Source: Allacma fusca (lineage: Eukaryota > Arthropoda > Collembola > Symphypleona > Sminthuridae). From it: a stretch of 64,000 nt of DNA. Position 1 is the first letter of the stretch, and every line of letters begins with the position of its first letter. The notes beneath the pieces are model-generated. The model ran no database searches and was not told where the DNA came from. It saw only the letters and a list, made by a program, of their open reading frames with translations. The position numbers and the translations under genes are program-made. The DNA is taken from positions 56,455,131 to 56,519,130 of the forward strand of contig OX359247.1 of assembly GCA_947179485.1 (NCBI GenBank). Direction: 5' to 3'. Shown here one piece after another: positions 2,393-55,465 of the stretch.

Positions 2393-3002
2393 TAAGGGAG
2401 AGGTTACTAATGACTCACTTTCAAAAACGTAAATATTTCACCCACCCACCCTATCGTCACTTGCTGTCACTTTCTGTTTGAGGCACCTACCCACCCTAGA
2501 AAGTGATGTCACAAAGGATCGCAAAATATCGTCTTTTGCTCAACAAAGTTTTACGGTGTCACCCTAATGAGTACTGGCGACTATTTGAGATACCTGATAT
2601 ATTGGCAAATTTGAACTCTTAAATTGGAGAAGAAAACGTCGTAGGACTTTGATTATTTAATAATAATTCAAATAGGCGGAATTAAAATATTTTGGTTCAC
2701 ATTAACATTGTTTCAGCAAATAATACTGCTTTTGCTCTCATTTACATCTTATTAATCAAAATGTAAATTTTGGCTACGTTTTATAAAAATCCATATATGA
2801 ATGAAAATACTGCTCACGATCAATTTAAACAACGTCCGATGCTTAATAATTCCAACAAAGTAATAACAACTGTTGGCCGTAAAAGCATGCTTATTGTTGG
2901 TCAGTTTTAACCCGAATATAGTGCGTAATTACTATTCAAACTGCAATACGCAGCAATAATGTGCCAAGGTAACCCGCAATAATACTAGCATTTGCAGGGA
3001 TG

Positions 3003-3370
3003 TCAACGATTAATAATCACGATTAATGATTAACGATTAATGATTACTAATTATTAATCATCAATCGTTAATTTAGTAAGCTTGGATTTTTTGAAATAAT
3101 CATCAATTGTAATCATCAATTAACCTTTTTGCAAAAATCAATCATCAATTGTAATCATCAATTAACCTTTTTCAAAAATCAATCATCAATTGTAATCATC
3201 AATTAACCTTTTTCAAAAATCAATTATCAATTGTAATCATTAATTTACCGTTTTCAAAAATCAATTATCAATTGTAATCATCAATTAACCGTTTTCAAAA
3301 ATCAATTATCAATTGTAATCATCAATTAGCCGTTTTCAAAAATCAATTATCAATTGTAATCATCAATTAT
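3003..3370. repeat. AT-rich tandem array, about 42-bp unit (left arm of hAT element)
   Basis: After a less regular start, about six or seven units of roughly 42 bases follow. Each carries AATTGTAATCATCAATTA, then ACC or GCC with a T run, then CAAAAATCAAT. The units differ by a few bases each, so the array is neither very recent nor homogenised. Confidence 0.9.
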
Positions 3371-3951
3371 CGGGCTGGCGACGTCTCCAAAATTCTAAGC
3401 AGTCTAGGGTTCGAAGAAGTTTTTACTAAGCAGTGTCCGGTGTATCTGGCTGATAATATAAAGGATATAATACACTCTGTTTACGATCAGAGCAGTTTAC
3501 ACGACATGAACAGAATCCTGAACTCCTCGTCTCACCCTTTGCACAAGTTAGCTTATTAAAATGATAAATGCAAGCAGTATCTAAATACCCACATTCCATT
3601 GTCATTCAAAGCCCTACTGTGCCAGTTTCGACTCAACAGCAGTACGCTAATCTATCGAATGAACTGTATTATATTTAATGAAGAATTTTGTTAGCTGTGT
3701 GGCCCACCTACACTTTATGACATTGAGCACATTCTGTATGACTGCAAGTACTTATGTGATATTAGAACTAAGTACTTTTCACACATCTCAAGAGACTAGT
3801 CCTTCGTAATATTTGTAACGCCGACGTGAATCTATGTAAACAACTAGCCTTCTTCCTAATTTCATGCATTCAAAAATTTTTATCTATGTAATGCATTATG
3901 GGTAAGCCCGAGTAAATACAATAAACTGGCCGAACAGTCCTTGATTGATTG
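3371..3951 (+). mobile_element. 5'-truncated LINE fragment (3' end of a reverse-transcriptase ORF)
   Basis: One frame reads about 150 residues with a few stops. It contains the pattern LCGPPTLYDIEHILYDCKYL, the Cys-x2-Cys ... His-x4-Cys tail motif found after the reverse transcriptase of many non-LTR retrotransposons. The element ends in AATAAACTGGCCGAACAG followed by the short tail TTGATTGATTGA, typical of LINEs with microsatellite tails. The repeat array resumes immediately after. The 5' part is missing, as expected from incomplete reverse transcription. The clade (CR1, I or Jockey-like) cannot be settled by eye. Confidence 0.78.
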
Positions 3952-4225
3952 AACAATAATTGTAATCGACAATTAAATGTTAAAAAAAATTAACAATAAT
4001 TGTAATCGACAATTAAATGTTAAAAAAATTAACAATAATTGTAATCGACAATTAAATGTAAAAAAATAAACAATAATTGTAATCGACAATTAAATGTTTA
4101 AAAAAATAAACATTAATAATTGTAATCGACAATTAAATGTTTAAAAAAATAAACATTAATAATTGTAATTGACAATTAAATGTTTAAAAAAATAAACATT
4201 AATAATTGTAATCGACAATTAAATA
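3952..4225. repeat. AT-rich tandem array, about 41-46-bp unit (central part of hAT element)
   Basis: About six units each contain AATAATTGTAATCGACAATT, then AAATGT and a run of A. Later units gain an extra ATTA so the period lengthens from about 41 to 46 bases. It is related to, but distinct from, the arrays on either side. Confidence 0.9.
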
Positions 4226-4734
4226 TTTTGTTAAAAGATAATCGTTAATTGCAATCCTCAATTAATTAATTTTCAAAATAATCGTTAATCGTTAATTGCA
4301 AGCATCAATGAAAATTATTTTTAAAGTAATCGTTAATTGTAATCATCAATGAAAATTATTTTCGAAGTAATCGTTAATGATAATCATCAGTGAAAATTAT
4401 TTCTAAAGTAATCGTTAATTGTAATCAACAATGAAAATTATTTTTAAAGTAATCGTTAATTGTAATCATCAGTGAATAATATTTTCAAAGTAATCGTTAA
4501 TTGTAATCATCAGTGAAAATTATTTCTAAAGTAATCGTTAATTGTAATCATCAGTGAAAATTATTTCTAAAGTAATCGTTAATTGTAATTATCAGTGAAT
4601 AATATTTTCAAAGTAATCGTTAATCGTAATTATTAATTATTAGTTGTAAGCCCATTAATCATTAATTGTAATTATAAATTCATTTTGTTTTCGAAGTAAT
4701 CGTTAATCGTTAATTGCAATCACAAAATTGGAAA
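4226..4734. repeat. AT-rich tandem array, about 42-bp unit (right arm of hAT element)
   Basis: About nine units each contain AAGTAATCGTTAATTGTAAT, then CATCAGTGAAAATTATTT. Individual units vary at a few positions. The array runs up to the right terminal repeat of the hAT element. Confidence 0.88.
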
Positions 4735-4956
4735 TTGACATCCCTGAGCATTTGTCGTTCTTGCTAACGGATCTCAACCTTAACACAGATGGAGTCGGTG
4801 ACGTCACTTTCCCAACAAACCACCCTACTACTACGTCATGTCTCGTCACTTTTAAGTGTTACCACCCACCCACTCAAAATATGACGTCATTAGTGACCTG
4901 CCCCTAATGTTTACGTACGATACTTAATTTTCATTGACAGGTATTCACGTGCAGAG

Positions 4957-6235
4957 CATAGATGGGCGTTTTTCTCCCCCTCTGCCTCTTTGTGCGAGGG
5001 ATGGAATATAGCCTGCTCGCACTCTCCCTCGTCATCAATCGTGCGACACGTTACGGGTTGTCCTCGCCCTCGTGAGGGGCTATTTTAAAATACACCCCTC
5101 TCCCTCGCACTCATGAGGGCCCTCGTTATTTTATATTACACGTAAATAACCCCCCTACAATTTCCTACAATACCTGTGCCTTCAAATAACTTTTTCGCGG
5201 ACACTTGGTTAAAATATGACAACTTCAATATGTGTCGACATTCCCCCCAGTTCTGAACGTACGGAACTTTTGGATAGCTTAGAAAGTTTATAAAATTTCC
5301 TACAACCTAGAGTTCAAAACAAATTTTAAAAAATTGTTGGTGAAATAAACTACTGTATTCAAAATTGTGCCATTCATTGGTTCAGGTTTTACACAGGTAT
5401 TTGGGTACAGGTACATATTAAGTTTCGTGGTTGACATAATTGTAAAAGGTATAAAAAACTTGAAAATTTACAATGTTTTTTCGATTTTGTCCTGAAAATA
5501 ACGTAAAAAAACAAGTTTAAAATTCTAATTCATCAGTAAAAAGTGTCTATCTTCCTTATATTTTAATTGTCGGCAAAATGGAAAACATTCAGTAGTCAAA
5601 CTACAATATTTTGTTATAAAAGACATTTTTGATAGTTTTTGACAATAATTTTCATTATAATCGATTTCGTAGCTCAGAAAATTACTATTATTGATCAAAG
5701 CTGTTTTCTACGTCTCCGGTTAATAAAGATTAGTCACAAATAGGTTCCATAACCTCAGACCAGTAATATTCAATAGTAGGGTCTGAAAATAGCATTAATC
5801 AAATATAAAGCCCAGGTGCCCTTGTTTACAAATGACCATGTCTCCCCGACATCCTAAAATGAAATTGTTTTATGGAGTTTAGTATGAGAAATTTTAACCT
5901 AAACAAGAGGACCTTTTACTTTTAAAAATTAAAACTGGGATTTTTGCGCAGGGCCATAAACCATGTACCTAAGACGTTATGAAGTTGTTCTTGCTACAGA
6001 ACAATATATGCATGATTTTCGCATAACGATTAAGGTAAGAGAATGTCATGAGGGCTTACATGTGTACTCTGCCTCCCCCTCTTTCCTTCACATCCTATTC
6101 ATAGGTCCTCTCCCTCATGTTCATGAGGGCACCTAAAATCAACGTGTACTCGCCATCACCCTCGCAGTTTGTGAGGGCGAGGACGAGGGAGAGGGCGAGG
6201 CATCCCTCAATTACTCGTGAGGGTGCCCATGTATG
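4957..6235. mobile_element. Non-autonomous hAT element, CCCTCGC/GAGGGC word family
   Basis: An exact 8-bp target duplication GTGCAGAG lies at 4,949-4,956 and 6,236-6,243. The ends are CATAGATGGGCG and, on the other strand, CATACATGGGCA (10 of 12 agree). The outer 160-180 bases at each side are crowded with CCCTCGC, CTCCCTC and TCATGAGGGC words, while the middle 900 bases (about 5,135-6,045) are AT-rich and lack them. No transposase is visible. The terminal CATAG departs at one base from the hAT consensus YARNG. Confidence 0.82.
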
Positions 6236-6243
6236 GTGCAGAG

Positions 6244-6982
6244 AAGACGATGCTTTCTGAAAGTGAAGTTTTGGAATTTTGGATGTCTTCGCTTATCACT
6301 TATTGTTGTACCCATAGTATAGTAGCTTTGTGTTTGTACCCGAGTTGCTTTGTTTCGTTCATTATTGCTCTAATTATTCCTCTCATATCAAATGCTAGTT
6401 TTTAACTTTTTAGAGCCGTAAAAGCATCTTCGTTTTGGTATTTTTAAAACATCATTTTTCCGTTATTATTTTGCTTTGAAGCCAGGATACAACAAACTCA
6501 GAATAAGTTTAAAAATAAAATTTCACAATTTAGAAATTATTGTTTCCAATTCCAATAAAATTCCATTGTTTACCAAAAAACATATCTATCGTACAGTCGT
6601 GCATCATCCCAGGAATGCCCAAGAAGGTAGTAATAAAAAATCAGGCCAGCTTCGGCTTCGACATGACATGACATGACCATTAGACTGAGCACAAAGTGCA
6701 GGATGGATGAGGGGAGGGCGAGCCGCGTACTGTGGGAGTTTGTTTTAATTTTCTAAAAGCATAATAATTACTTACATATACATGCATACTTGCACTATTT
6801 AATATCAAATAACGCTTTGATCCCTTTAAAATTTAGCATGAAACGTAGATATTGGTTTAAATAATTAAAACCCCTTCTCCAACTCTCACACACGTTATTT
6901 TCTAATCCCAAAATTATTATCCATAAGAGATATCAGCACCAATTATTTCATTTTTTGTCTTAAATAATAAGTACTGTAAAAA
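6244..6982. other. Intergenic, upstream of the plus-strand orphan gene
   Basis: Nothing is recognisable here. Short frames at 6,217-6,405 and 6,476-6,676 have no domain. The last 150 bases probably hold the promoter and 5' untranslated region of the gene starting at 6,983. Confidence 0.4.
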
Positions 6983-7990
6983 ATGGCAGAACCACAAAGT
7001 GGAACCTTCGCCGAAAACAAAAACTCCTCCTCCGCATCAGCAGCAGTAGTAAAGAAAGATGCACAGATACAAACTACGCTGGAATTGGCTGTACTCCAAG
7101 AAAATCTATTGAGGAATGAGCAGGTCAAGATTAAAGAGTTCCGGAGAGCTTATAGTCAAACAACGGGTCTTAAAATATCGTCAAATTCTAGAAGAAATTC
7201 CAGTACGTCAACGGCTTTGCCTTCACCAGTACCTCCTGATTTCTCAAACCTATCTCATTTCATGCAAATGAACCCCTCATTATTTCAAATTAAAAAACGC
7301 TCATCGAACATAACAATGCCAAGTTGTAGAGAAAATATTTCAATGGCTTTATCTAAGTCAAGTGTAACCTCTGAATATTTGTCAAATGTACCCTCCAGAG
7401 ATCATTGTGCAGTTGAGAAACTTAGAGTTACTGAATTCTTACAAACCAGCTTCGATCACGAATGGCAGGAAAACATTTTTGCAAAATTAGGCAAGTTTTA
7501 TCCATGGAAAATTCAAGAACCAGATGAACCTTCGACGATGCAGATGCTCACTAATTCTGAGAAGGATTTAGAAATACTGGAAAATCTTCTCACTACCTTT
7601 CCCTTCCAGACTGTTTATTCTGCAGTTCAACCACCTGTTACACTACCGTGTCTGAGCTTGTCCACCTTTTTTGACACATTCATGTCTCATCGAGATTTCA
7701 TTCCGAAGACACTCCTCCGAAATTACTCCGACCATGCTTTGTTACACGTCAGGCCCCAAGAAATTCCGGAAGAATTATTTCCATCAAGACCAGTAAGCTC
7801 CATTGAAGACTTTGAACTAAGTTATAATAAAGACGGGAGAAACGTTCAAATTGAGCATAACAATGAATTTGGAGAGAACATCGTGTTCGGAAATGGGCCC
7901 AAGCATGTTATTTCTCCAATCAACATGAATCCTGAGAAGTCAAGAATTCGATACCGGAATTTCCCTTCTATGGTGAATTTTTATCTGTAG
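6983..7990 (+). CDS. Unrecognised 335-residue protein, single exon
   Basis: I do not recognise this protein. It is one uninterrupted frame of 335 codons that starts at the first ATG in a good context (AAAAATGGC) and ends with TAG. The N-terminal third is rich in Ser, Ala and Asn and looks disordered. Residues 26-32 read DAQIQTT, close to the consensus for binding dynein light chain LC8. Residues 150-270 look more ordered, with hydrophobic spacing, several aromatic residues and a short leucine-rich helix (KDLEILENLLTTFPF). There is no signal peptide or membrane segment. Long length, codon-like composition and a Kozak-like start support a real gene. It is transcribed towards the F-box/LRR gene 180 bases downstream. 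Function unknown. Confidence 0.72.
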   Translation: MAEPQSGTFAENKNSSSASAAVVKKDAQIQTTLELAVLQENLLRNEQVKIKEFRRAYSQTTGLKISSNSRRNSSTSTALPSPVPPDFSNLSHFMQMNPSLFQIKKRSSNITMPSCRENISMALSKSSVTSEYLSNVPSRDHCAVEKLRVTEFLQTSFDHEWQENIFAKLGKFYPWKIQEPDEPSTMQMLTNSEKDLEILENLLTTFPFQTVYSAVQPPVTLPCLSLSTFFDTFMSHRDFIPKTLLRNYSDHALLHVRPQEIPEELFPSRPVSSIEDFELSYNKDGRNVQIEHNNEFGENIVFGNGPKHVISPINMNPEKSRIRYRNFPSMVNFYL

Positions 7991-8169
7991 TTACACTTTT
8001 TAATTTCCACAGATAGGCATTTATTTGTACTTTTAAAAAAATGCATTCATTATAAATACGCCGCAACGCATTTGAAGGGTCACACTCGTTTAAGCAGGTA
8101 AGATAATGATAGATTTGTGAAAAACTGAAGTCATAAAATGTGTTATATAGGCGCTGAAATCAATAATCA

Positions 8170-9971
8170 ACCGAAGCAAAATCTCAGATATTTTTAAATG
8201 GCGCCTGATTAACAAACACTGGAACTCCATCTGTTGCTCGAAACTTGAGAAATTAGTAAACCCTGAAATAACTTTGAATTCGGAAAACCACATCAAAGCG
8301 TTCCTTCAAGTATCACAATGCCCCAAGCTAACACTCTTTAGTTCATTTAGCCTTAATCAAGTGATTGTGCGTCCACCATTAGCCGCCTGGGATTTTTTAG
8401 TAAGATTTGGACCAACTTCTATCAAAAGGCTAGAACTTCAACACGACACCCTTATTTGGGTCGAGCGATTCCGGGAACTCCTACAACATCTCCCAAACCT
8501 CGAATACCTCTCCATGGGAATAACTCGCTTTAGAGGAACACGTTTATGCCCTGACACCCCTTCAGAAATCATAGGCGCTATTGATTTGCCAGTTTTAAAA
8601 AAATTAATGCATGTTAATTTTTATGGTGTAGGAGGTTCTTTCTCATTCCATGAATTACTTCAAGATTTTTTTTCGACGTTTGCTCCAAATGTGGAAATTG
8701 TTCAAGCCAATCCAGGAGAGCCAGGGCTAATGTCCAAAGATTTCCGTGAAAAATTAATTTGTGGAAGTTTGAGTTTAAGAAAACTGAAAAAGTTTGACTT
8801 TCCAATTTCAGTGGGGGAATTAACATTGAAAAAATTAGGAGGATGCAGACTTCCTTTGCAAGAATTAATCTTGGTTATAAAAGAGAGCGCCATTAGAAGC
8901 GAGATTATTTTGAAACTTCTGAGGTCAGTCGTAAATACTTTAAAAATTTGTGAAATCACTTTCGAGCTTTTTCAAGAGGGACGAAAGCAAAAATTTGAAA
9001 TTCCGGGTTTGAAAGTTTTGGAGAGGCTTGTTTTGAAAAATTTCTACGGAGGAACTGATGGCTTAGCTTTTCTGAACAAATGCCCCTTGCTTAAGTACAT
9101 GGACTTGTCAATGGTTGACGGGTATGAAACAATGCTCCCCGAAAAGATGCCTGCCATGGATAGTATAGAGGAAATTAGACTATCCCCGACTGCGTACTGC
9201 AGTTCTTGGGCTTTCCAAAATATTCTGGGTATGTTCCCGAAGTTGAGAAAGTTGACGATGGAACATGCGGAAGATTTCGTCTTGAGGGCTATTTTCTTGG
9301 AAGTAGAAACCCTAGAGGAGCTAAGTTTGAGTGGAACCTTTACAGATGAAGGAGTAACTGGGATTCCAAGGGACAAGTGCAAGGACGTTTTGAGGTTCAA
9401 AATGTACAACGAGGTGGACGCGGTCAAACTTCGGGAATCGGTGTGCATAGGGAACTTAAAGAGTAAACGAGCACTTTTATGAACCTAATCTTAATAAATA
9501 TTGTGCAGATAATTAGTTTTATACCGTTTGGTAATAGATTTGTATCAACTTCATCTGAAAAGTAATTTTATTACGGACGTGTCAATCCTCCATGGTGTGG
9601 CCTGTGTGAAAGCAGTGACAAGCTTGTCTTTAAGCGCAGAAAAGATAACCGACATTTCCATCGTCTGCATCATTAACAATCTGCAAAAACTCAAGCGCTT
9701 ACATTTGAACAAATGTTCATTATTGTCTGTAGAGCTCCAATTTGCTGTGTGGAAGGAGTTTAGTGAAGAAATAATTCTGGATTTTGAAGAAATCAAACAC
9801 TTGCTCAATGCTGTAACTAAGCAAGTGCGATTTTCAGAGGACGGGATGAAGGACGTCCTTGAATGCATTGATCCCGATAAGGTCAATTATTTTCAGGGCG
9901 CATTTCTTCCTTGCCTCCGGAATTCCGAAAGCGATATGAAAGACTCTTTAATTGGAACAAGCAATAAATAA
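8170..9971 (+). CDS. F-box/leucine-rich-repeat protein, two visible exons, 5' end uncertain
   Basis: The frame begins at about 8,140 with an F-box-like tail (ISDIFKWRLINKHWNSICC), which normally follows an N-terminal helix. The first half of the F-box must be in an upstream exon or lost; a possible donor GTAAGA lies at 8,097. The first in-frame ATG I can point to is at 8,274, which would drop the F-box. About 450 residues of degenerate leucine-rich repeats follow. A 75-base GT-AG intron (9,463-9,537) joins both frames in phase, ending in KNLYQLHLKS. F-box proteins recruit substrates to SCF ubiquitin ligases, with the LRR as reader; the substrate is unknown. The stop at 9,969-9,971 overlaps a poly(A) signal. 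The product ends convergent with WDR81, 585 bases away. Confidence 0.75.
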
Positions 9972-9972
9972 A
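9963..9972 (+). terminator. Poly(A) signal overlapping the F-box/LRR stop codon
   Basis: AATAAA occurs twice in overlap (9,963-9,968 and 9,967-9,972). The TAA stop at 9,969-9,971 lies inside the second copy. If used, the 3' untranslated region would be only some 15-30 bases. Confidence 0.6.
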
Positions 9973-10556
9973 GGGATTTGAAATCTTTGTCTTTTAATTC
10001 AACTTTCCATAAAACTCTTGCGTTATAATTGCCAAAGAAAACATTTCATGATGACCAGAGCTTCTTTTGATTTAAGTAATCGAAAGCCCGAACTAAGATT
10101 TGATTTCTTCTTTTTTAGCCTGCCGTGTACAACTTAAAACTGAGTTCTGGTTCTAACAATCCATGCAAACATGAGTATTTATACAGGATTTGATATACTT
10201 GATAGAGAAAATTGGTTCAGTATACATATAGTTCAAATCGGTGGATGAATTCCTCCAAACATATCTAAAATCAGTATTGAAATTAACAAATAATTCCGTT
10301 TAAAAAACATTTAACCTTGACAAGCGTGCATGAAATATCATTGTGTCGAAACTTATCACATATAAGTAATATATATTACTAAAGAAGTATAATTATTACA
10401 TAAAATAGGTGAAACGATGCATTGAAAAAGCACAAAAACTAACTTAACTTTTGTTGCAATTCTAGACAAAAATCGACACCGCAGCGAAACGATACATTTA
10501 ACGTGGATGAGTATGTTCTGAAAATATCCAAGCAAGTTCTAGTCGCTGGGAAGGAT
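9973..10556. other. Convergent intergenic gap
   Basis: It holds the 3' ends of two convergent genes. No open frame, repeat or RNA gene is recognisable. Confidence 0.45.
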
Positions 10557-20519: not shown

Positions 20520-23663
<3,144 letters not shown>

Positions 23664-25675: not shown

Positions 25676-26374
25676 GGCCACGGCGGGTCGAATGGTACTG
25701 CGAACTTCAACGCAGATGCCTTCAGTGTCAAGATATGGGTGGGACAAATTTCGTTACAGAAAACAGCGTTCTCCGACTCGCTTCGCTCCTAAAGAGGTCA
25801 GATTATGTATACAAATCTGACACTAAAAATTGAAATGTGCCACCTGCTACCATTAATGATAATAATAATTACTGAATATATTTGCACTTTGCTAAGGTTC
25901 CTCAACGGAATAGGATATATCCGCATATCCGCGGATCGGATAAATTTCGGATAGGATAATTAATGAATTTATCCTATCCGCATATATCCGCCCGGATCGG
26001 ATAGGCACATTATATCCGTTAAAATAATGCGGATAGGATAGGATACAAGGTTAAAATTATCCGCACGGATACGATAATAGAATCTTGAGCTTCAGGTAAT
26101 CCTTCGGATATCTGCGGTTATCCGCGGATAGCGTTATCTGCCATCTGTTGCATACCGGCCTAACAAATTTTGGTAGTAGAATGAAGTAATTGATAGCAAA
26201 ACGACGAAAATACGCTTTTCTATTTCAACAAACACAAAAACACACAGTATATTGCTACTAAATTTACTCATCTTTATCATCTCCTAAGTAAGTCCTACCA
26301 AGGAAATTAACTGTCATACAGGAAGTTTAAAACTATCCAATTCAAATTTGAGTGTCGAAATGTTAACCGACAAT

Positions 26375-26788
26375 TTTTTCGGACCAGACCAGACCAAAGA
26401 CTATGGTCCTGACCATGGTCCAGAAAACCATTGAGAGCAATAATTAAATAATCATATTTTATCCAGTCAAATTCTTCTTTTGTTCCCAGAAATGACATTT
26501 TTAATTTGTTCCGTAGGATTTCGTTAATTCATAAATTTTTATTTTGCGTACTTTTGGGACCACGGTCCTGTAGTCTGGTCTGGTCCTGAAGCTGGACCAA
26601 TTGTATCTGGTCTGGTCCTGAAGCTGGACCAATTGTATCTGGTCTGGTCCTGAAGCTGGACCAATTGTATCTGGTCTGGTCCAAGCGTTGAATCAGACCG
26701 GATCAGACCATACAAATCTGGGATCAGATCGGACCAGACCAATCCAAGACCATTAATAATGGTTCGGACCAAATCATTGGCATCCCTA
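26375..26788. mobile_element. hAT-like fragment, GGACCAGACC word family, nested in the GGATAGGATA element
   Basis: The stretch is full of GGACCAGACC/GGTCTGGTCC words. Its right end, read on the other strand, begins TAGGGATGCCAATGATTTGG, a good hAT terminus. No matching left end is visible, so it is probably truncated and its left limit is approximate. It lies wholly within the element at 25,893-27,208. Confidence 0.5.
26574..26682. repeat. 32-bp tandem repeat, three full copies and a part
   Basis: The unit TCTGGTCTGGTCCTGAAGCT plus GGACCAATTGTA is repeated nearly without change. High copy identity points to recent expansion. The open frame across it is repeat-derived. Confidence 0.9.
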
Positions 26789-27216
26789 GTTGCGCCTATA
26801 GTTACGGTAATTGTATATTTCATATTACAAAGAGAAGAATGATTATTGCAGGGGTGAATAAATGATAAGCGTAATATTCATACTATGTAATCCTATATTG
26901 ACCACGTAAACCGGAGGACCTTTTTCGACACTTTGTATTTGAATAAATACTTTTTATGAATTTGCAAGAATAATTTCTAAATTCGAACCATATCCGCGGA
27001 TAGGATCGGATTTCTCGTTGCAAGTATCCGTCGGATACGGATACATATTATATCCGATCCGAAATTTTCGAATAGGATTCGGATAACATAAAAACTTTAT
27101 CCGACATTACCGGATAGGATCGGATTAAGTTTTAATTTATCCGAGAATTTGCGGATAGGATAGGATACGGATAGGATAAGCCATTTATCCTATCCGTGAG
27201 GAACCTTACACTTTGC

Positions 27217-28427: not shown

Positions 28428-28435
28428 ATTGTAAT

Positions 28436-30144
28436 CAGTGCTCGGACTGGGTACAGAAACCGTGTACCCGTACCCGAATATCGGGTACTACAAAATGCTG
28501 TACCTATACCCGTACCCATACCCGAGTACCCGGGTAAATTATTTCAGTACCCGTACCCGTACCTGAAAATACAATGTAGTACCTGTACCCACAATTTACC
28601 CGTACCCGTAATGTACCCAAAACCTGTACCCGTACCCGAGTATCTATTGTGTGTACCCGGGTATTACTCGGGTACTGGAAGTTTGGCCGATTTAAAACCC
28701 CCGACGACATTAGCCTGCCCAGCTGAAAAATTTCAAGTTGTCAATTTTTTGACCTCCATTAAAAGTGTCCGGGATTTTGGGAATTTTCCCTAGGTGTTAA
28801 AGACATCCTATTTGAATTTTTTGAAAAAATTATTTAAGGCATTGTGTGATTTTTTTAATAAACACTGACGAAATTCAAATCCTACTACCCCAAAATAATA
28901 ACTTGCTGAATGAAATGAAATGTGTTCTCGCTAATTGGAATTGGGACGGATTCTTTAATACTAAACTCTCCATAACTTGCTTTTCAACTTGGAGAACAAG
29001 AAACAATTTTTTTTTTCGGCTAATCGAACTCTGTGTATAGAAAATGTTAAACGGAAAAATTGGGTTGATCATAATTTTTCCAAGTCAAATATTGCGGTTT
29101 CAGGAAATAAATGTGGGAGGCAATATTGAATATTCATTTTATATTACAGCTTTATAAAACAAACATTCGTAAACTGCCTCTAACATTTATGAAGCCCGAG
29201 ACGGAGATTTTCGAAAAATGCAGGCAAAATAGAACTAAAATGCAACCCCATGGAAGTTTTGAACGCCAAGTTCAGATGTCTGTCAAGTTCTTTTAACATC
29301 AAAATTATCAAGATTAATCAAAGGGACTGAAATATAAATATTGCGTGCAAGGAATGATATTTTTCATTCTAAAATGTTATAAATATTCACCTCAATGAAT
29401 ACTCAAAATGTCATAAATACCCAGAATTGAAAATGCTCAAATTGCCTGCATAAAATGCCTTGGCGTTTTCAAATGGACAACCCTGGGTACTTGTAACGTT
29501 AAGAAATGGATCTGCTAATAAATGTATATTTATTCCGATCTTATCTCGGAATACGTCTTCAAATAATTGTAATGTTACGCTCCCAATGAAGCTAATTAAA
29601 TTGAATCCCAAGAACCTCCCTCTTGAAATTCTTCGTTGATGAGCTTCACTATTTAAGTCGATAAACAGATGATTTCACTGACTCTACGCTCTATTTCTTT
29701 ATTAGATTCCTTGGATGAATTATTAGAAGCGTAGATTGCAACTACCACGTAATCATAAACGAAACGAAGCCACTTGGCTCTGTCACTAACGCAAGTATCT
29801 GTATACTACGAAATAAGCAACTCGACGGTTGGTAGGTCTTATTGTTAGCCATAGTAATCCATCCCATCAGGAATCCTTGAAGTACCCAAAAATATTCGGG
29901 TACAGCACCCACGGGTACAGGTATTTTACATAGTGATACCCGTACCCATTGGGTACTACCCGATTGTCACTGAGTGAGTACCCATACCCGTACCCGCACC
30001 TGTACCCACTTTATTGTCTAAAATCCAGAGTACCCGGGTAGTACCCGCGTACTTGCGAGTACGCAACTTCTGTACCCGGGTAGTACCCATACCTGTACCC
30101 GTACCCATTTACCCGAGTATTACCCGTACCCAGTCCGAGCACTG
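28436..30144. mobile_element. Non-autonomous hAT element, GGGTACCCGTACCC word family
   Basis: The ends CAGTGCTCGGACTGGGTAC (28,436-28,454) and its exact complement (30,126-30,144) form a perfect 19-base inverted repeat. An exact 8-bp duplication ATTGTAAT flanks it (28,428-28,435 and 30,145-30,152), and this fits the hAT target preference nTnnnnAn. About 240-270 bases at each end are dense GGGTAC/TACCCG words. Another hAT-like element (about 28,678-29,485) has inserted into the left arm. The remaining core at 29,500-29,870 has a 66-codon minus-strand frame that I cannot assign. Confidence 0.93.
28678..29485. mobile_element. hAT-like element, AAAATGCCC family, inserted in the GGGTAC element
   Basis: Its left end GAAGTTTGGCCGATTTAAAA and, on the other strand, right end CAGGGTTGTCCATTTGAAAA agree at about 13 of 20 positions. 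Both resemble the copy at 30,319-30,906. It is flanked by GGGTACTG and GGGTACTT (7 of 8), a likely target duplication inside the GGGTAC array of the host element. The exact ends may shift by one base. Confidence 0.65.
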
Positions 30145-30318
30145 ATTGTAATCAATCTTTCGTACTTCTCGCTTCGTTCAGTAATTTTATTCTCTTTGAA
30201 ACACCACGCTTAAATGTTGCAGGAAGTATACATCCACTCTTTTCTAGTTAGTTGCTTATGAATCAAACTGCATTTACAAAAATATTCTAGAAAACGTAGA
30301 TTTTCTCCTTAAGCTATA

Positions 30319-34359: not shown

Positions 34360-34365
34360 TTTATT
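34360..34365 (-). terminator. Candidate Megf8 poly(A) signal
   Basis: AATAAA on the minus strand, about 315 bases past the Megf8 stop codon. It is the nearest good hexamer I noticed. Confidence 0.4.
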
Positions 34366-46600: not shown

Positions 46601-46885
46601 AAACTGATATAGTTACTCCTTACCAACAATAAGCCATTCACAGTACGAGTCTTGAGTGTAATTAGCCTTCCCATCCGAGATGATTCCCCAGGAGGAATTG
46701 GTAATAATACGACGCGTCCGATTGCATGACGCCTGAGATTGTTCCGCCACATCCGACCACGAAATTGACAGATCCGGAAGGGACAAAAGAATCAGGAATA
46801 CCACCACGGAACTGAACAATACATTACAACTAATTCGGAGGGAGTTAAAGGTGAGTAGCCGACGTTTCCTAACCCGGCTCTTCAT
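34679..46885 (-). CDS. Megf8: Megf8, multiple EGF-like domains 8, giant type I membrane protein
   Basis: Thirteen coding exons encode about 2,700 residues, close to vertebrate MEGF8. Order: signal peptide and CUB (46,885-46,623, 46,443-46,275), EGF and six Kelch repeats (44,790-43,490), PSI repeats and a calcium-binding EGF starting [12 protein letters not shown] (43,226-41,545), laminin-EGF, second CUB, second Kelch set and PSI (41,380-39,180), PSI (38,630-38,070), PSI, EGF and laminin-EGF (37,920-37,040), laminin-EGF (36,820-36,685), an ectodomain stretch (36,248-36,060, 35,945-35,665), membrane segment [20 protein letters not shown] (35,540-35,355), then a cytoplasmic tail with [11 protein letters not shown] and LPGGPTAP (35,137-34,985, 34,868-34,679). 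Vertebrate MEGF8 works with MGRN1-type ubiquitin ligases to lower Smoothened and shapes BMP and left-right signalling. The start is the only Met before the signal peptide. The protein ends in five arginines encoded by a CGA run. Exon limits are approximate. Confidence 0.93.
45105..45865. repeat. Dispersed repeat in the second Megf8 intron, three related copies
   Basis: A phrase like CCTTTATGGTAATTTGTAA followed by CGCGAACCTATAAAGCG occurs near 45,112, in part near 45,385 (CGCAAAACTATAAAGCG, then CTAGGAGAGAGAG) and near 45,800. The latter two share a further 40 bases (TAGGAGAG ... TTTAAAA). Family unknown. Confidence 0.6.
45167..45250. repeat. Short inverted repeat in Megf8 intron
   Basis: CGGATCAAGCCAC (45,167) and GTGGTTTGATCCG (45,238) are complementary at 12 of 13 bases, with an inner GC-rich segment rich in GGTGGTGG. 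It could be a small hairpin-forming repeat. No target duplication seen. Confidence 0.45.
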
Positions 46886-48323
46886 TTCAATTTAGTGCGG
46901 TCCGTCCTTTCACTCATTTTCCTCTCACAAATTGCTTGTACGATAGCAATTATTCCCGTTCACTAAACCGAAATAACATGGTGAGAAGAGCAATAATTGA
47001 CATCTTGATTCGTATCGTGATTCCATGCTTAGGGTAGGAACAATTTGAATGGAATTATAATCTGGGATCAAAAACAGAAAATATGTAAATATAATTAACA
47101 CTACTTAATTGCAATCAAGGAAAAAAACCTTAACTTTGCCAATTCACATTTTTCATTATACAAAACTTTAAGTTGTAATCAAATTTCACAAACCTATCTT
47201 ATTGATCCAAATTCCAAATCCTATGCATTTAGGAAAAATCGACTCCCATCATCACTTCTCTCATTATCAATTATGAAAAATTATTAACTTTCTCAATTCA
47301 CAGATTCACTTCCAATCAGTGGCGACTTAATTTTTTCGTTATATACTATTTAAAGCTATAACTGGGACACTTGCGGAACATAAAGTGTTTTATTTCGCAA
47401 AATTTTATTAATGTGCAATTGATTGAAGCATATTTTGAAATTGGGTAAAATTATGACAGGAGCAGAAGACCTCAAAAGTAATTAGATACACATTGCAGCA
47501 TAGCAATACTCTACTTGCTTTTGGTATGTATTCCTTCGGATTTTAAAGCCAAGCTTCGTATAAACAGAATTATTTTGAATCATCGCGGTGGCTGTGTTTA
47601 ATCCAATCAGGCCCAGAACGAAGGAAAAGGCACATACAGTACTCTCTTGCGTAAGTATAAGTACAGTACAAGTACGAAGAGCGAATGTACCTTAGGCCTA
47701 GGCCTAGTCCTAGGAGCATTGGACTTCAATTATGACATACACTCTCAACCTATGATGGTGAACCTGTGACCTCCTTGACCCTTGAGTAGAAAATCTGTTG
47801 TTTTAGAAAGATGATCGGTAAAAATAAATCAATGTTGAGGCATGGGGCGCAGTGACTACAAGTCCTTTTCAAAATCAGTACAGGCCGAAAGAAATGTACG
47901 GATAAGACATTTAGTAGCAGTTAATTTACTTCAAATGCAAAATCACCACCAACTATAGTAATGACAAAAAAGCTCTTGATTAAAACTAAAAATGCTCAAT
48001 TGAAAATTACAATAAACAACGGATATTGCAAATATGCCACTGATAAAATAACATTTTTCATAAGAATAATTCTGTAACATAATTCTACAAGACACCCTTG
48101 TAGATAAAAAAACAGTGAAATAAACTGATTAGTGAACTAATTATTAATTATAATGGAATAATTAATATTGTAAAAAATCATTTGATGTTTACCATCGTCA
48201 GTCTATTTTCAATCTGAGTCTAATATAATATTCACAAATGGGAATTTCGTTTTGGATTCTATTTCTTGACAAAAACAATTTCGCAATGCTACACACATGG
48301 ATTAAGAGAGAACGTTTTACATT
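46886..48323. other. Gap between Megf8 and RABL6
   Basis: The Megf8 promoter should be next to 46,886. The GC-rich start of transcription is not obvious. The phrase TAGGCCTAGGCCTAGTCCTA near 47,694 is a small palindromic repeat. No gene seen. Confidence 0.4.
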
Positions 48324-48329
48324 TTTATT
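48324..48329 (-). terminator. RABL6 poly(A) signal
   Basis: AATAAA on the minus strand, about 70 bases after the RABL6 stop codon, followed by a T-poor, mixed stretch. The distance is normal for an animal gene. Confidence 0.6.
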
Positions 48330-48398
48330 TGGTTTCTAGCGTTATTAGTAGGTATATAGCTAATAGCGTTGACTCCGATAATTTCAGATCGGTTCTTT

Positions 48399-51300
48399 TC
48401 ACAGAGCTTCGTACGCATTCAAATCTACATCACCAGTTGATTGCACGGAGGTTCCAGGTCCGTTTAAAAAATCTTCCAAATCCATTTGGGGCTTGTCCTT
48501 TTTTGAAGACTTTTTATGCTTTGATTTTTTATGCTTCGAGGACTTCTTGGATTTTTTATCCCCACTTTTACTATCATTTCGAGATGGGACAGGAGAGGAA
48601 GAAAACTCGGATAGAGCATCAGTTGCATTGAAAGTATTATCAAAACCTTGTGAGGTGGAATCTTTAAAGAAGAAATTCAAATCCAAGTCTAAGGGTACTG
48701 TGTGGGTACTGTTTTCTTGATTCTGTTCCTCAGCCCTACTCCTTTCTTCTTCTTCATCTGAGGATGACAAGATGCAAAATTTTTTGGAAGGAGACTCTAC
48801 GGCTGCAGCTTTTACTTCTTCATCAACTTTGATTTCACTACTAGCACCATTCGTCGTTGGAGGATTGCTGTAAGCTTCAGGTACGACATCCTCTTCGTAA
48901 GCAGCAACCAATGGATTCTGGGAGGACTCATGTGATGCTTCTTCATCTTCATCTGTTGTTTCGAATTCAGGTCGGAAATTATTCCTGTTTTGACTGTTTC
49001 GACTGGAACCATCGTCGAAGAATGATTTGTCTATCCCGTTGGGACCTTCCGGAACAAAGTCGTCTACATCCGGAGAGCCGGGTTCTCCTGGTGATTGTTT
49101 TTTCGGTGAGGATTTATTCGTTGGTTTTGAATTGTTACTGTTATTAACAAGGATGTTTTGCTGATTCTTAGTATTTCCGGTACTAACTGGAGATTTGCTA
49201 GCTTGTTTCGGTAATGTCGGTTTAGTTTGTAAGGAGCTGGCGGAGGTAGTTGTTGTAGCAAGACTGGACGCGGATTCTTGCAGAGTCTTTCCTACGGGAT
49301 TGCTTGGCACATTTTGCTTTGAATTGTCAACTATACTTGGTTTGGAGGCTACAGCCACCGCAGCAGCCACATTCCCTTCTTTCATTGCCTTTTCTTGAGC
49401 GATGGCTTGCGCTTCCGCAAGACTCATCTTAGCGGGCACTGATAAAGCATCTGCGGCCTGTCGTCGCTTCTGAGTAAGCCCATCAATGAAACTACGGATT
49501 TAAAAATCAGAAATTGTTTAATGTTAGCAATTGTTCTGAATATTTAGTAATTTGTCTTGTCATTTGATCAGTCTTGATGCAAAAATTCTACATAACTTAC
49601 AGGTCATAATTAGACTCATCACTATCTGCATAGTAATCTAGTTCCTTCAACGTTACATTATTTTCCTCCCTATTCGTTTCTAATTGCTTTAATAGAGTTT
49701 CTCGTTGTAGTTGCAAAAAAGGCAGATTAAAGAACTTGTGTATGAACTTTAAGCCGAATCCATTTCTCATTGAGGATTCAGCGTAACGAATTTCAGCACT
49801 ATCGTCGTCCCTGCAAAACACAAGAACATTCAAACATTTTTATCCAATATTAATTAATACCTAAGCCCTTGAATGATGATACAAAATATTTAACTTATCC
49901 AAGCACTAACCTTGACAACCCTTCCACAAAATAATGCACAGAGTCAGCAGCAGTAGCCCTATGATGGCCCATGTCCCGGTGATTCCCTAAAATTAATATT
50001 GGGATGTGTGCCGGGACACAAGGAACTTCTCTCTTGATGTAATCGAACGTCCTGTAGAAAGACAAGTTCAATAAAGGTTCATACGTTATAAATACTTTCC
50101 GACCTGTTTCAAATTAGCAATAAGCAAGAAAATATCAAATATAAGATCAAATCTCACCAGTTCTTGGTGATGTCAAACACAAAAATAACTCCGTTTGTAT
50201 TCTTGTACACATCTAAAAATGAAGCATCCAAACCAATCTCTTGAACATCTTCTTCCTCCCCAGCTTTATTGGCCTGTGCATTGTCTATCTTGAGCTTATT
50301 CGGCAAACTTTTCTTTTTCTTAGCTTTGTCCACCACATCCCATACTTCTACTTTGACCACATCATCCGTCGTTTTGTAGTTCCATTGAATATTGGCAGCC
50401 TTCAAATCAGAACATACTATTAAATCAATTTCTACGAAATTACTAATTGCCGGCTAATATCCATGAATCCTTAGCATTAAAATAATAATAATTATCGTCC
50501 ATAATGAAAATAGGCACACATAAGCATATTTCCAGTAATTTCATTAATTGAAACCCTACCTGAATTTCGTCCGTCGGAGTATATTCTTCCACAAAAGGAA
50601 GACCTTGCAGTCTTCGAAAAAGGCACGTTTTCCCGGAATTCCTATCCCCCTTGAGGATGATTTTCACTGGAGAAATAAAAAATTAAAAGACATTTTAGAA
50701 TTTCATTTTCGCTAACTCTAAAAACTCAAATATTGAAGTACAAAATCTGTTTTATTCGGATCCTCAATAGAAACATTCCCATCAACATGACACAAAATGT
50801 GACATTGACCTCACAAGTTCATCAGCTTCAAATTGGCATGTTTGACGTCATGGAAATCAGTCGCAAATTATACCATCATTTGAACTCATGAGGGCACCCA
50901 GGATCGAAACCACATCCCTCTGCTACACGATAATGCACACATCTACTAAACCCTACCTTTCACAACCATCATTTCAGACCACTAGGCCACAATGTAACGA
51001 ACTTTCAAACTCAAGTGCTGTTGTCCTAAGTATTTAAAATCCTCAGGTTTCATCCTTCTCACTATCAACTTGTACACTCTAATTACTCTGTAATTCCTGC
51101 GTAGGATGATTATTACAGATTATGCCCAGACATATTTTTAAACTTCATGTTAACACTTCATTTCCAACAGAATTACAAAACTGAACTATTCCTTTAAAAT
51201 TGGAATATGCCTTGAACTGAAAGAAATACTAGTTACTTAAACCTCAATGCTAAATATTTCATACATCCACTACTGTTGACAAACCTAAAAATAAATAATT

Positions 51301-51475
51301 ACCAGCTACTACTACAACGAATGACAAAACTTATTTGGCTTTACTCACTATTATATTGAACTCCTTTCGAGAACTTTTTCTGGAGAGTTGAGGACATGGC
51401 ATGAAGACCCGGCGGGGTATTTGCAGCCCCATTTGTGTCCGATCTTGTTGTTAGCCGTTTGAGCGCCGAAAACAT
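48399..51475 (-). CDS. Rabl6: RABL6, Rab-like GTPase 6
   Basis: Six coding exons encode about 640 residues (human RABL6 about 730). The start, [13 protein letters not shown] at 51,475, matches the family N-terminus and is followed by FSKGVQYN. Exons lie near 51,475-51,350, 50,668-50,561, 50,402-50,157, 50,053-49,913, 49,812-49,601 and 49,493-48,399. The GTPase domain shows the P-loop [17 protein letters not shown] where ordinary Rabs have DTAGQ, and NHRD near the usual NKxD place. Then [20 protein letters not shown], strongly conserved in the family. The last 360 residues are low complexity, with Asp/Glu/Ser blocks, a DDFVPEG motif, a lysine-rich [17 protein letters not shown] segment and the end [10 protein letters not shown]. 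The altered DxxG suggests unusual nucleotide handling. The family is tied to cell proliferation in mammals. No sign of prenylation cysteines at the C-terminus. Confidence 0.93.
50885..51000 (-). mobile_element. Possible tRNA-derived SINE head in first RABL6 intron
   Basis: On the minus strand, GTGGCCTAGTGG (near 50,995-50,984) matches a tRNA A box (TGGCNNAGTGG). GGTTTCGATCCTGG (about 50,910-50,897) resembles a B box with one extra T. The spacing is somewhat longer than in a true tRNA, and no acceptor-stem pairing is clear, so a SINE relic is likelier than a working tRNA gene. Confidence 0.5.
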
Positions 51476-53138
51476 TTTTGGACAATTTCGGGGAGACACA
51501 GTAATTGTTTAAATGACGTCTACTCAATATACTTACAAGACTCGAAAACACTAAATTACATATAAAGCACAATACTTATTACAATCCCTAACAAAAAAAT
51601 GACTGTCGACACGACACTTGACTCCTTGGCACCTTCAATTTCAATAATATTTCAAAACTATTTAATTATTCGCTACCATTATCTGACCAGTACGTTGACT
51701 CACATTGTCACAGCTAATAATATTTAATCTCACTTCACCTCTGTAACACACTATTACATGATTTCATCAACAAAATATGTAACACCGGAATTTTGAAGTA
51801 TACAGATTTTTAATGTGACTCCTTGTGATGTTATAGAGAGGACTATTAATTGTAGAAATAATATTAACTTATTTTGGTATGCACACTCCTATTATTTTTA
51901 AGCATTACAGATGATGTGATATAATTTGATGTTTTTGCTACTACTGTTTTGAGTGTAAAAAGTTATTTAGCACAGGTGTCAGAGTGAGAAGTTGCCTATG
52001 GAAATCCTCCTTGTGTATAATATTCACTAAAAACTGATTCCTGCTCTCCTCACAACACTTTCATATGGGACGGATCCACTCGAGTGCTAAACACTTTCTT
52101 TTTTTATGTGTCGAATCAATAGCCATGTTGAACTCTGTGGAAGTGAGCGTGTTGTGGGGAGACTGAACAACAAGTTCATTTTTGATGTAGTTTTATTTAA
52201 ATCTCGGCAGTTGTCAAAGAACACTTGTGTGATATGAGAGTATATTTCGGTAGTTTTTTTTGTATAATAACTCTTCACAGGACAGTGATAAGTTAATAAA
52301 TGTGTTGACTTCAGTACCTATTTATCTTAAATCTAAATGAGAAGAGCTGTTAGTACTATTTTCGTTTTAGATGGAAGCGTATATACGTATTAATCCGTAA
52401 TAATTATGTTGAGGTATTTATTTAATCCTGCCTGCTGTCGTATTGAAATTGAAGGTGCTTATATAAGTATGTTATGTAAGCTCAGCATATAAATGAAGTT
52501 TGGAGATAAAGCGACTCTGTCCGGCACATTTCGCTTAACGACAGCACAGAAGTTCTATTTGTAGTCAAGGGTAGGCATCTACCCGTCGAAAAATACGACG
52601 ACGAGGAGTAACTATAAATAAATTGAGCTGAAAATTCTTGAACAGACTATTATTACAGAAAAATATATTTACAGTATTAAGGTAATATAATGGGCACTTG
52701 CGTATAGGGATTAGTATTAAGCTTAATTATTTTGGCGTCTTGCTTTTAAGGGTTCACTGGTACGAAATTGTATTAGATTAGTTATATCCACATTTTTATA
52801 ACCTCACATATAGTACAGCGTACTACATTATCATGCCAAAGTATGTAGTTTCGAATATTTTCGATTTAAAATTAGCTAGAAAATGCTGACAACATTACTG
52901 TAAAATTTCTATAAAAGTTAGGGACCGAGTAAAAGAGGAAGTTTGATTTTTATTGGAGTGACAAAAGTATTTAGACACGCCCCTATTTACCACATCGTTA
53001 GTTTCTTGCATTACAAGGTCATAACATTATAAGGTCCACATTTTTGCCTTTAAACAGATTTTATAGAAAGTGAACAATGTAAGAACAGCATGAAATTTTC
53101 AATAGCTCCATACATTGGTAGCCATGCTGGAATTTAAA
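51476..53138. other. Gene-free stretch upstream of RABL6
   Basis: The RABL6 promoter and 5' untranslated region should lie at 51,476-51,900. Beyond it I see only AT-rich DNA and short frames without domains. Confidence 0.4.
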
Positions 53139-53150
53139 TATTAACCTTAA

Positions 53151-53202
53151 TAATAATAATGTTTATTCAGGTCGATAATACGGCCTCAGCCCTTACAACC
53201 TT
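53151..53202 (-). mobile_element. Extremely truncated LINE copy: only the last 52 bases
   Basis: On the minus strand the segment reads GGTTGTAAGGGCTGAGGCCG, then TATTATCGACCTGAATAAAC and an (ATT)n tail, a normal LINE 3' end. It is flanked by an exact 12-bp target duplication TATTAACCTTAA (53,139-53,150 and 53,203-53,214). That makes it a genuine insertion cut short by early stop of reverse transcription. Confidence 0.8.
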
Positions 53203-53214
53203 TATTAACCTTAA

Positions 53215-54801
53215 ATAAGATAATAATATTAAAATTAGTATACATAGTTTAAGACCTCAATTCAGCTTATTTATTTTTTGACAAGCGTCGAACACTGGAC
53301 AAAAGTTATTGGTTATATTTTCTTCTGAAGATTAGAATATAAATTTTGCAAAAGCTTCCACTTTCTAATGATGAGTTTTTATGATTGCAGGATAAGAGGA
53401 ACGATGTTATGTGACATTTTCATTTTCACGGTTACTGCTGGTTGTATGAAAATGAGAAAAATTGACGTTTGAAAATAAAGATTTTTAAAAGGCGAGGCTT
53501 TCAAAAGTTTAACAGATGATTTTATGTTAAAATTACAGTACTATCTGTGACAGTTTATTCTATTATATACATGTATACATAAATATTATATTACTGTGGT
53601 CTTCCAGCTTTTTTTAAGGGGATATAATTACTAACGATCTATTTGAATAAGTTTTTTCATATTACGCTTCATAGAGTTGGTAGGTTAATTTAGACAGTCT
53701 CCTGAGTCTATAAGCGTTACATGGTCTATAGAAGATTTTCAAGGTCTTTGAGTAGTTTGAATGCACCATTTTAATAGATGATGTGTAAACACTATTCCAT
53801 TTTAAAACAGACTGTGAGTAATGTTGTGAGGGTAGACAACGTTATGTGCACTTGCTTGTATACAGTCAATGTCAATAACTTGACATGGTCGTCTGTACGA
53901 GCTGTGTGTGCGTACATGTAAAAAGAACAATTGTTTTTTATATTCAAGTTTTGATCCAAGGGAAAGCAAGGGCAGGATTTAGTGCCTACATTTTCTACTT
54001 GTACTTTGTTATTTCCATACTTAAACATTTCTCCGCCAAATGTTGTATCCATCAAACTTTGATGATACCTGAAAACGTTGCCTTCTATTTCCAAAATATG
54101 TGTACAGTAGACTCGCAATAGTCAGGATGAGATAGTTATAACAACGAAACCTAGAATTTACAAGTTTCCTCGCACAATTTGTCTTCCAACTCATGCAAGC
54201 ACTGATATAAAAGTATTCACTTGCCTCATCAGAGGTTTGAAATTTGAATATTAAATCACTAATTTAAGTCACTGGACTGGTCAACCGTTTGGGTATCAGA
54301 GGGAAAACATATAATACAGATATCGTTTTTTTTTCTGGCAAGTTTATTTTCTTTTTGTAATTCCGTAGTGGGCCACGTAGCGTTGAATTCCTAAGGTTCT
54401 ATTTAAATTATCACCCTATACCCTATCACACAGATTCAACCCTGAAAATTTATTGCAATACTGACTGACATAAAATCAGCTTAATAAGTTCAAAATCATT
54501 CTCAGGTGTGAAAAGGGTCGCTTTAAAAAATCTACTTTGGACTGCCGTAGCATGACCCAACTTGTCAATGTTGTCAATCAAATTTTGTCCCTTTCGTGAA
54601 ATTGTTGATCGCCCTGCTCGACTTCCCTTTTGACTTTCGAACACAGGGACCCATTCAAGAATTCTCTTCAATTTCCTTATTTTGTACTCTTCTGTCTGTC
54701 GAGCGGATAGAATAGTTTTTACTAAATAATTAATTTAGCCTGCGGATCTGCCACCAAGATAATTTTAATAGTTACCTAGATGAACTGATCTTCACAATTA
54801 T
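53215..54801. other. Gene-free stretch
   Basis: Frames at 53,792-54,121 overlap on both strands and carry no domain. A 73-codon minus frame at 54,450-54,671 is likewise unassigned. Confidence 0.4.
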
Positions 54802-54809
54802 ACTTGTAC

Positions 54810-55465
54810 CAGAGCTTCTGCCGGGGACAGGGACGTCCCGTCGGGACACTGGACGGACCGGGACGGGACGTCCCCGGGGACAAAATAATTGTCCCCATGT
54901 CGTATTCGGGACGGGACGGGGACAAAAAAAATTTCCCCATTATAATCGGGACGGGACGGGGACAAAAAAAATGTCCCCATTATAATCGGGACGGGACGGG
55001 GACAAAACAAATTGTCCCCATTGTATTCGGGACAGGACGGGGACAAAAAAAATGTCCCCATTATAATCGGGACGGGACGGGGACAAAACAAATTGTCCCC
55101 ATTGTATTCGGGACAGGACGGGGACAAAAAAAATTGTGTTTTCCTATGTTTTTGGACAAATATTTTTTGAACGAAGTTTTCCTCATGTTCCGATTTTTGG
55201 TAAAAGAATGTTTACAACTGTTTTTAGTAATTTTCGGCACGGAACAAGAATTTTGTTCACATGCCCCGGACCGGGGACAACGTTTTTTAATACTTTTGGG
55301 GACGGGACGGGGACAACGATTTTTGAAGATTTTGGGGACGGAACGGGGACATGGATTTTGTCACCGTGTCCCGATTGTCGGGACGGGACTGGGGACAAAG
55401 GTTTTGAAAAAATATCGGGACGGGACGGGGACGGGACAAGAATTTTGTCCCCAACAGAAGCTCTG
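54810..55465. mobile_element. Non-autonomous hAT element, GGGACGGGGACA word family
   Basis: An exact 8-bp duplication ACTTGTAC lies at 54,802-54,809 and 55,466-55,473. The ends CAGAGCTTCTGCCGGGGACA and, on the other strand, CAGAGCTTCTGTTGGGGACA agree at 18 of 20. Almost the whole 656 bases are GGGACGGGGACA words and tandem units, leaving a short AT-rich centre (about 55,130-55,270). The 220-codon frame across it, on the plus strand, is repeat-derived and not a gene. Confidence 0.93.

Follow-up and report, generated by a model that had tools for sequence, protein, structure and literature searches.

The 64,000-nucleotide stretch of the Allacma fusca genome analyzed here (the window; assembly GCA_947179485.1, contig OX359247.1, positions 56,455,131 to 56,519,130 of the forward strand) contains five transposon insertions, E1 to E5, each bounded by an exact target-site duplication (TSD) and each carrying a short repeated word that is absent or almost absent from the other four. 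E1, E3, E4 and E5 are clearly hAT-like, and E2 is probably so. We consider it probable that all five are non-autonomous DNA transposons of the hAT superfamily, resembling miniature inverted-repeat transposable elements (MITEs) and belonging to five families, and we predict that their words serve as family-specific recognition sites. Elements of this kind are already known; these five families constitute a new set. With five cleanly bounded hAT-type families bearing different words within 52 kb, the window offers a compact natural experiment.

Boundaries and tips of the five elements

The boundaries of E1 to E5 fall exactly where a preliminary description, made from the letters of the window alone, had drawn them (Table 1). 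In all five elements the 8-bp TSD is identical on both flanks, and the inverted tips match over 12, 11 (one mismatch), 12, 19 and 11 bp, in order from E1 to E5. A blind scan of the entire window was performed for 8-bp TSDs paired with 11-bp terminal inverted repeats (TIRs) lying 80-8000 bp apart, using ten third-order Markov sequences as controls. Matches at loose settings are uninformative, since each control yields 32-56 candidates where the window yields 77. Under strict settings (TSD exact, no more than one mismatch in the TIR) the window gives six candidates, as against one across all ten controls together, and these six are E1 to E5 plus an interval at 56028-56116. Given that the strict scan recovers all five elements and the controls give almost nothing, E1 to E5 are real insertions, and the absence of mutations from their duplications suggests a fairly recent origin. 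The sixth candidate, which the scan took for an element of 89 bp flanked by TGCCGGCA duplications, is more simply read as a stem-loop. At 56014-56130, TTTGACTGCCGGCACACGCAAGTG and its complement form a perfect inverted repeat of 24 bases enclosing a loop of about 70 bases.

The tip consensus of hAT elements is YARNG, and the TSDs of the Ac group follow nTnnnnAn. Four of the five tips (CAGGG, TAAGG, CAGTG and CAGAG) fit YARNG, the CATAG/CATAC tips of E2 do not, and the 8-bp TSD that is a feature of hAT elements is present in all five. The TIR lengths of 11-19 bp lie in every element within the 5-27 bp described for hATs (PMC3517528). Subterminal repeats, treated in work on the goldfish hAT Tgf2 as a defining feature of the superfamily (PMC4890040), occur at both ends of all five elements and are weakest in E2. 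The preliminary description had called these hAT-type elements with family-specific subterminal repeats; their anatomy fits that assignment, which also matches printed work.

In titles and the openings of abstracts, outside Repbase and most subscription journals, we found no account of these families, their words or their same-strand arrays, nor any comparison of arrays across co-resident hAT families; at this scope the negative is a weak one. Exact word and tip patterns returned 0, 2, 0 and 2 stretches in viral contigs, and one pattern returned 3 in bacterial and archaeal contigs. Five of those loci, viewed over about 250 bases on each side, are isolated matches with no comparable tip or array.

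Table 1. Features of the five elements, with positions counted from the first letter of the window.
Element	Feature	Position	Strand	Properties	Sequence
E1	Left TSD	2987..2994		right copy 4747-4754; strict scan	AGCATTTG
E1	Element	2995..4746		1752 bp; 12-bp TIR at both tips	TIR CAGGGATGTCAA; word core AATTGTAATC / TAATCGTTAAT
E1	Left array	3094..3369	+	6.7 units of 41 bp, 96% matches	
E1	Centre without the word	3371..3950	+	peptide pieces	
E1	Middle array	3952..4228	+	6.8 units of ~43 bp, 94% matches	
E1	Right array	4286..4630	+	8.4 units of 41 bp, 90% matches	
E2	Left TSD	4949..4956		right copy 6236-6243; strict scan	GTGCAGAG
E2	Element	4957..6235		1279 bp; 11-bp TIR, one mismatch; word on both strands	TIR CATAGATGGGC / CATACATGGGC; word CCCTC x19
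E3	Left TSD	25885..25892		right copy 27209-27216; strict scan	CACTTTGC
E3	Element	25893..27208		1316 bp; 12-bp TIR; word on both strands	TIR TAAGGTTCCTCA; word CGGATA / GGATAGGATA
E3	Sixth word cluster	26381..26788	-	six copies, partly a 32-bp tandem unit	GGTCTGGTCC x6
E4	Left TSD	28428..28435		right copy 30145-30152; strict scan	ATTGTAAT
E4	Element	28436..30144		1709 bp; 19-bp perfect TIR; word mostly on one strand, both ends	TIR CAGTGCTCGGACTGGGTAC; word GTACCC / TACCCG
E5	Left TSD	54802..54809		right copy 55466-55473; strict scan	ACTTGTAC
E5	Element	54810..55465		656 bp; 11-bp TIR; word mostly on one strand, both ends	TIR CAGAGCTTCTG; word GGGAC / GGGACGGGGACA
E5	Left array	54875-55137		40/81-bp units, 88-93% matches	

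Density, arrangement and orientation of the private words

TAATCGTTAAT is present in 14 copies in E1 and in none in E2 to E5 or in the remaining 57,288 bases of the window, while GGATAGGAT (10 copies) and GGGACGGG (15 copies) are found in E3 alone and E5 alone, respectively. E4 carries 30 copies of TACCCG, which has 11 outside the elements, and 31 of GTACCC, which has one in E2 and 11 outside. The five-base CCCTC has 19 copies in E2, one in E4 and 63 outside. The preliminary description was right that each element has its own word, and less so about some of the words it named: GGGTACCCG has no copy in E4, CCCTCGC occurs in E2 in three copies only, and the nine copies of TAATCGTTAATTG in E1 lie in its right half, the left array consisting of related units instead.

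In most end segments, counted per 100 bp, about 15-57% of the bases belong to words, where the background has 0.5-1.4%; the share is no more than 5% in most central steps of E1 to E4, and in the centre of E5 it thins to 10-15% without vanishing. The reported pattern of words dense at the ends and scarce between them is found over most of E1 to E4 but not in the centre of E5, and the centre of E3 holds a sixth word. As a measure of density we took the share of repeated 7-mers per 300-bp window, for which 1111 background windows give a mean of 1.1% and a maximum, near the start of the analyzed stretch, of 19.7%. The best windows reach 83% in E1, 64% in E5 and 30% in E4; in E3 the figure is 23% at the ends and 39% in the centre. 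In E2 every 300-bp window that lies entirely within the element stays under 10%, below the background maximum, and E2 is the weakest case for word arrays. The description of these arrays as extreme suits E1 and E5 on this measure, those of E3 and E4 being moderate and that of E2 not extreme.

In all five elements the outermost word lies 13-15 bp from at least one tip (15 bp at the left of E1, 13 at the right of E2, 14 at the right of E3, 14 at both ends of E4 and 15 at both ends of E5), the first words of E2 standing 13 and 22 bp from its two tips. As for close pairs among the matches listed outside the elements, CCCTC alone has many; CGGATA and GTACCC have two each, and the longer words none.

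Tandem arrays are found in E1 (41-43-bp units) and E5 (40/81-bp units); in E2, E3 and E4 the words are scattered. The three diverged array types of E1 have AATTGTAATC in common, and in an unanchored common-substring test 2000 unit shuffles gave no shared stretch longer than 9 bases (0 at 10 or more). This test was used instead of a unit-conservation analysis anchored on TTGTAAT, in which seven columns are conserved by construction. Left-right homology was tried as a source of the words and set aside. It is seen in E1 in both orientations (direct score 158 vs 60 +/- 10 resampled; inverted 100 vs 44 +/- 5), is borderline in E5 (direct 53 vs 36 +/- 7, the highest of 60 resamples being 59; inverted 36 vs 25 +/- 4, highest resample 38), and is not seen in E2, E3 and E4, whose direct scores of 29, 48 and 44 fall within the range of fourth-order resampling.

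A spacing of about 41 bp is inherent in the tandem units of E1, where the gap-shuffle test is uninformative, and it recurs in E5 (p <=0.001); E4 gives mixed values (pair-count p 0.007, spectral p 0.12), and E2 and E3 give no signal. The recurrence of this spacing across elements with unrelated words is a lead only. Helical phasing at 10-11 bp was rejected, with nothing consistent beyond one of 12 spectral rows (E4 minus strand, p 0.003; the plus-strand and pooled rows of E4 give p 0.82 and 0.99). Palindromic word pairs were likewise rejected as a general grammar: they are clear in E1 alone, where the array unit repeats the pair (strand-shuffle p 0.000), and the corresponding values for convergent pairs are 0.46, 0.65, 0.28 and 0.18 in E2 to E5. 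As a separate observation, E5 is open in one frame from end to end (54789-55463, 225 aa), and its 81-bp unit is divisible by three. A Pfam scan of this frame gives nothing meaningful, and it is probably an accident of the array.

The tips of the elements are mirrored, but in E1, E4 and E5 one and the same strand carries most of the words at either end (E1, 18 of 18; E4, 34 of 45 TACCC; E5, 35 of 44 GGGAC). Mirror symmetry is rejected at p 3e-5, 9e-4 and 1e-4, respectively, values to be read with the non-independence of sites in tandem arrays in mind. E4, with its scattered words, is the cleanest case and retains p 7e-4 after copies inside the tips are dropped. Mirroring in E4 and E5 is largely confined to the outermost copy at each end, 14-15 bp from the tip; most inner copies lack it. 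The point of interest is that three unrelated words each form long one-way arrays, an arrangement that would fit the end asymmetry known from other hATs.

Candidate mechanism and competing explanations

By analogy with relatives in print, a dedicated hAT transposase, encoded at another genomic site, would mobilize each element in trans. Its catalytic domain would act on the 11-19 bp tips, and BED zinc fingers from several subunits of the transposase ring would bind the outermost words as docking sites. Since a finger reads few bases, several copies would help to distinguish an end from other genomic DNA. The inner words might add avidity and family specificity or might position the end; this is the least secure step, and candidates for their role range from avidity through end identity and a host factor to nothing at all. 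The unmirrored words of E1, E4 and E5 would give the two ends different identities. Arrays would have grown by tandem duplication of about 41 bp (E1, E5) or stayed as scattered copies (E2, E3, E4), and private words would keep co-resident transposases off each other's ends. We infer from the same relatives that the word is a transposase binding site, and co-divergence of word and BED finger is plausible.

The closest comparisons come from hATs with characterized ends; what follows draws on parts of the papers cited. In Hermes, from Musca domestica, the BED finger binds the outer repeats of the left end in the structure, its substrate lies at left-end bp 11-27, where the outermost words of E1 to E5 are also located, and each left end makes three BED contacts (PMC10368747). 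The long arrays described here go far beyond three docking sites. Hermes resembles E1 to E5 in concentrating short repeats near both tips, and E4 and E5 in that the first repeats of its two ends align and most others are asymmetric (PMC10368747). It differs in having a four-base repeat, AAG(T/C), in 17 and 14 copies, with dispensable deep copies and no tandem units described in the part concerned (PMC10368747), whereas the words of E1 to E5 are 5-12 bases long, denser and partly tandem. Hermes relies on one palindromic site pair, and the many fingers of its octamer are argued to help end recognition; elements with two left ends are nearly immobile, leading its authors to call end asymmetry an important requirement, and scrambling the deep left-end region (nearly) abolished mobility through some other feature (PMC10368747). 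The same-strand arrays bear on this question of why long ends are needed beyond the outer binding sites.

Herves, from Anopheles gambiae, is like E1 to E5 in its 11-bp TIR and in carrying one transposase-bound motif with variants at both ends, and its left end includes three imperfect 100-bp tandem repeats; it is unlike them in being autonomous and in its word (PMC3143072). Its CG/AATTCAT motif suffices for transposase binding, a four-copy repeat of the motif alone being bound, and its authors hold that binding regions differ between hATs and so secure specificity (PMC3143072). Tgf2, with which we group Tol2 as a close known system, has 17 and 18 subterminal repeats at its two ends, though it is autonomous and from a vertebrate (PMC4890040). 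The target region of Kluyveromyces Kat1 holds the hexamer AATTCA/TGAATT between its TIRs with a polarity that differs between ends; here the transposase is domesticated, and there are six exact copies and 12 at five of six matches (PMC4763223). Yellan et al. found that the motifs of hAT-derived proteins are diverse and that four hAT proteins have matches within the subterminal regions of their own elements (PMC8097297). Among the hAT-19 and CGGBP proteins, related BED-type members prefer different words (CGG, CGC/GCGC, AT-rich) according to protein-side binding-array data (PMC8097297). Outside the superfamily, the P-type element Galileo has extra binding sites in the tandem repeats of its ends, and several sites are argued to give specificity to the short recognition sequence of its THAP finger, which, with its very long TIRs, sets it apart from E1 to E5 (PMC3688188).

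Several observations weigh against reading E1 to E5 as hAT elements with functional words. None of the 47 window open reading frames (ORFs) of at least 110 aa encodes a hAT transposase or BED finger recognized by Pfam, although a transposase gene outside the elements could escape such an ORF scan if its exons are many and short, and no transposase domain was found in the 9 of 60 shorter centre pieces scanned. Because Pfam finds no transposase with a BED finger or C-terminal dimerisation domain, E1 to E5 are not autonomous copies. Each family has one copy within the 64 kb. E2 departs from the YARNG rule and has few words. The TSDs fit no single hAT group: two of the five, those of E2 and E4, one copy each, match nTnnnnAn, and none matches the nnnTAnnn of the Buster group (PMC3517528). 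No asymmetry of word orientation is seen in E2 (p 1) or E3 (p 0.53). In Hermes, the conspicuous repeat GTGGC was long taken as the binding site, which proved to be AAGT; mutating the putative deep left-end BED sites keeps about 70% of activity, and auxiliary transposases are ruled unnecessary there; and making the first three repeats asymmetric again failed to rescue the left/left element (PMC10368747). A word can thus be dense without being the binding site, and inner copies may be of no consequence.

It is quite improbable, in our judgement, that the words are passive minisatellites, produced by slippage or unequal exchange inside the elements and without a binding role. The arrays of E1 and E5 are truly tandem (90-96% and 88-93% matches), the left and right arrays of E1 are homologous in direct orientation, as array spreading predicts, and the GTGGC and deep-site results show that end repeats can lack a needed role (PMC10368747). 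Yet the words of E2, E3 and E4 are scattered without extended left-right homology and still crowd both ends, the part common to the diverged arrays of E1 is the word itself, and each of the five elements has its first word 13-15 bp from a tip. Crowding of the ends by tandem growth in some elements and by scattered copies in others argues against a mere minisatellite. We give a low probability to the idea that the words instead serve a host factor, DNA-bending or other, or impart a DNA shape for end pairing. The authors of the Hermes study propose a DNA-bending cellular factor (PMC10368747), but a single factor for all families would not need words that differ, and these are private; moreover, the Herves transposase itself binds its repeated motif (PMC3143072). 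The preliminary suggestion that arrays expanded as decoys, titrating transposase and so repressing the mobility of the family, is very hard to credit: 45 copies of TACCC in E4 and 44 of GGGAC in E5 are far above the three BED contacts per Hermes left end (PMC10368747), but the words stand beside intact tips, at both ends and within intact duplications, the longer ones form no close pairs among the matches listed outside the elements, and Tgf2, described as active, also carries 17 and 18 end repeats (PMC4890040).

For E2 taken by itself, membership of the P superfamily, whose transposases use a THAP finger, is unlikely. P elements have 8-bp TSDs, and the CATAG/CATAC tips are off YARNG; against this, the TSD GTGCAGAG fits nTnnnnAn. 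Internal binding sites at the ends are also found in P and Galileo elements, those of Galileo in tandem repeats, but the first words of E2 lie nearer the tips than the THAP sites of either (bp 41-63 in P; about 70 in Galileo) (PMC3688188). No transposase piece was recognized by Pfam in the one of 11 E2 centre pieces scanned.

Returning to hAT elements with family-specific recognition words, a broader version of this proposal strikes us as rather doubtful. It holds that this one genome contains six or more hAT-type families, each of which has come by drift to a word of its own, that three or more of them carry polar same-strand arrays with only the outermost copy mirrored, and that the arrays, arising as word and BED finger diverged together time after time, would form an insulation code against cross-mobilisation and would mark left and right for the transpososome. 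If true, the arrays would point to the feature that Hermes needs inside its ends. Should matching transposases be found in the host genome, the words would predict the binding site of each finger, and the word-finger pairs could then be used to study DNA reading by BED fingers and the means by which families sharing a genome are kept from mobilizing one another.

Element centres and other content of the window

The peptide pieces in the word-free centre of E1 resemble what we take to be the C-terminal tail of a non-long-terminal-repeat (non-LTR) reverse transcriptase, with a Cys/His knuckle and TTGATTGATTGA at the 3' end. Pfam gives no match for the three pieces scanned, and a retroelement fragment may lie between the E1 arrays. 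Within E3, a lone hAT-like tip, TAGGGATGCCAA, adjoins the sixth word cluster at 26777-26788 on the minus strand. This tip pattern, picked post hoc, has 10 matches at two mismatches in comparison with 10.2 expected by chance, and the neighbouring word cluster is the sole support for the exact tip. No exact match of at least 7 bases to the 15-base tip was found as a left counterpart in 25893-26420 on the plus strand; the interval 26381-26788 may represent a nested, truncated element from a sixth family.

Among the short pieces, a single match falls under E 0.01, to Emr1 in E4 (29414-29674; E 3e-4, below the cut-off of that model), and it was taken as chance, as were a lantibiotic model in E2 (E 0.017) and two domains of unknown function (DUFs) in E5 (E 0.065 and 0.63). 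Elsewhere in the window, Pfam recognizes BEACH, WD40, DEAD-box helicase, attractin-type kelch, EGF and PSI domains, which mark the DNA as eukaryotic and probably animal. At 59433-63014, a PIF1-like helicase piece (plus strand, E 2.5e-8) lies near a B-family DNA polymerase piece (minus strand, E 1.5e-5, just under the cut-off), a pairing that suggests a large mobile element.

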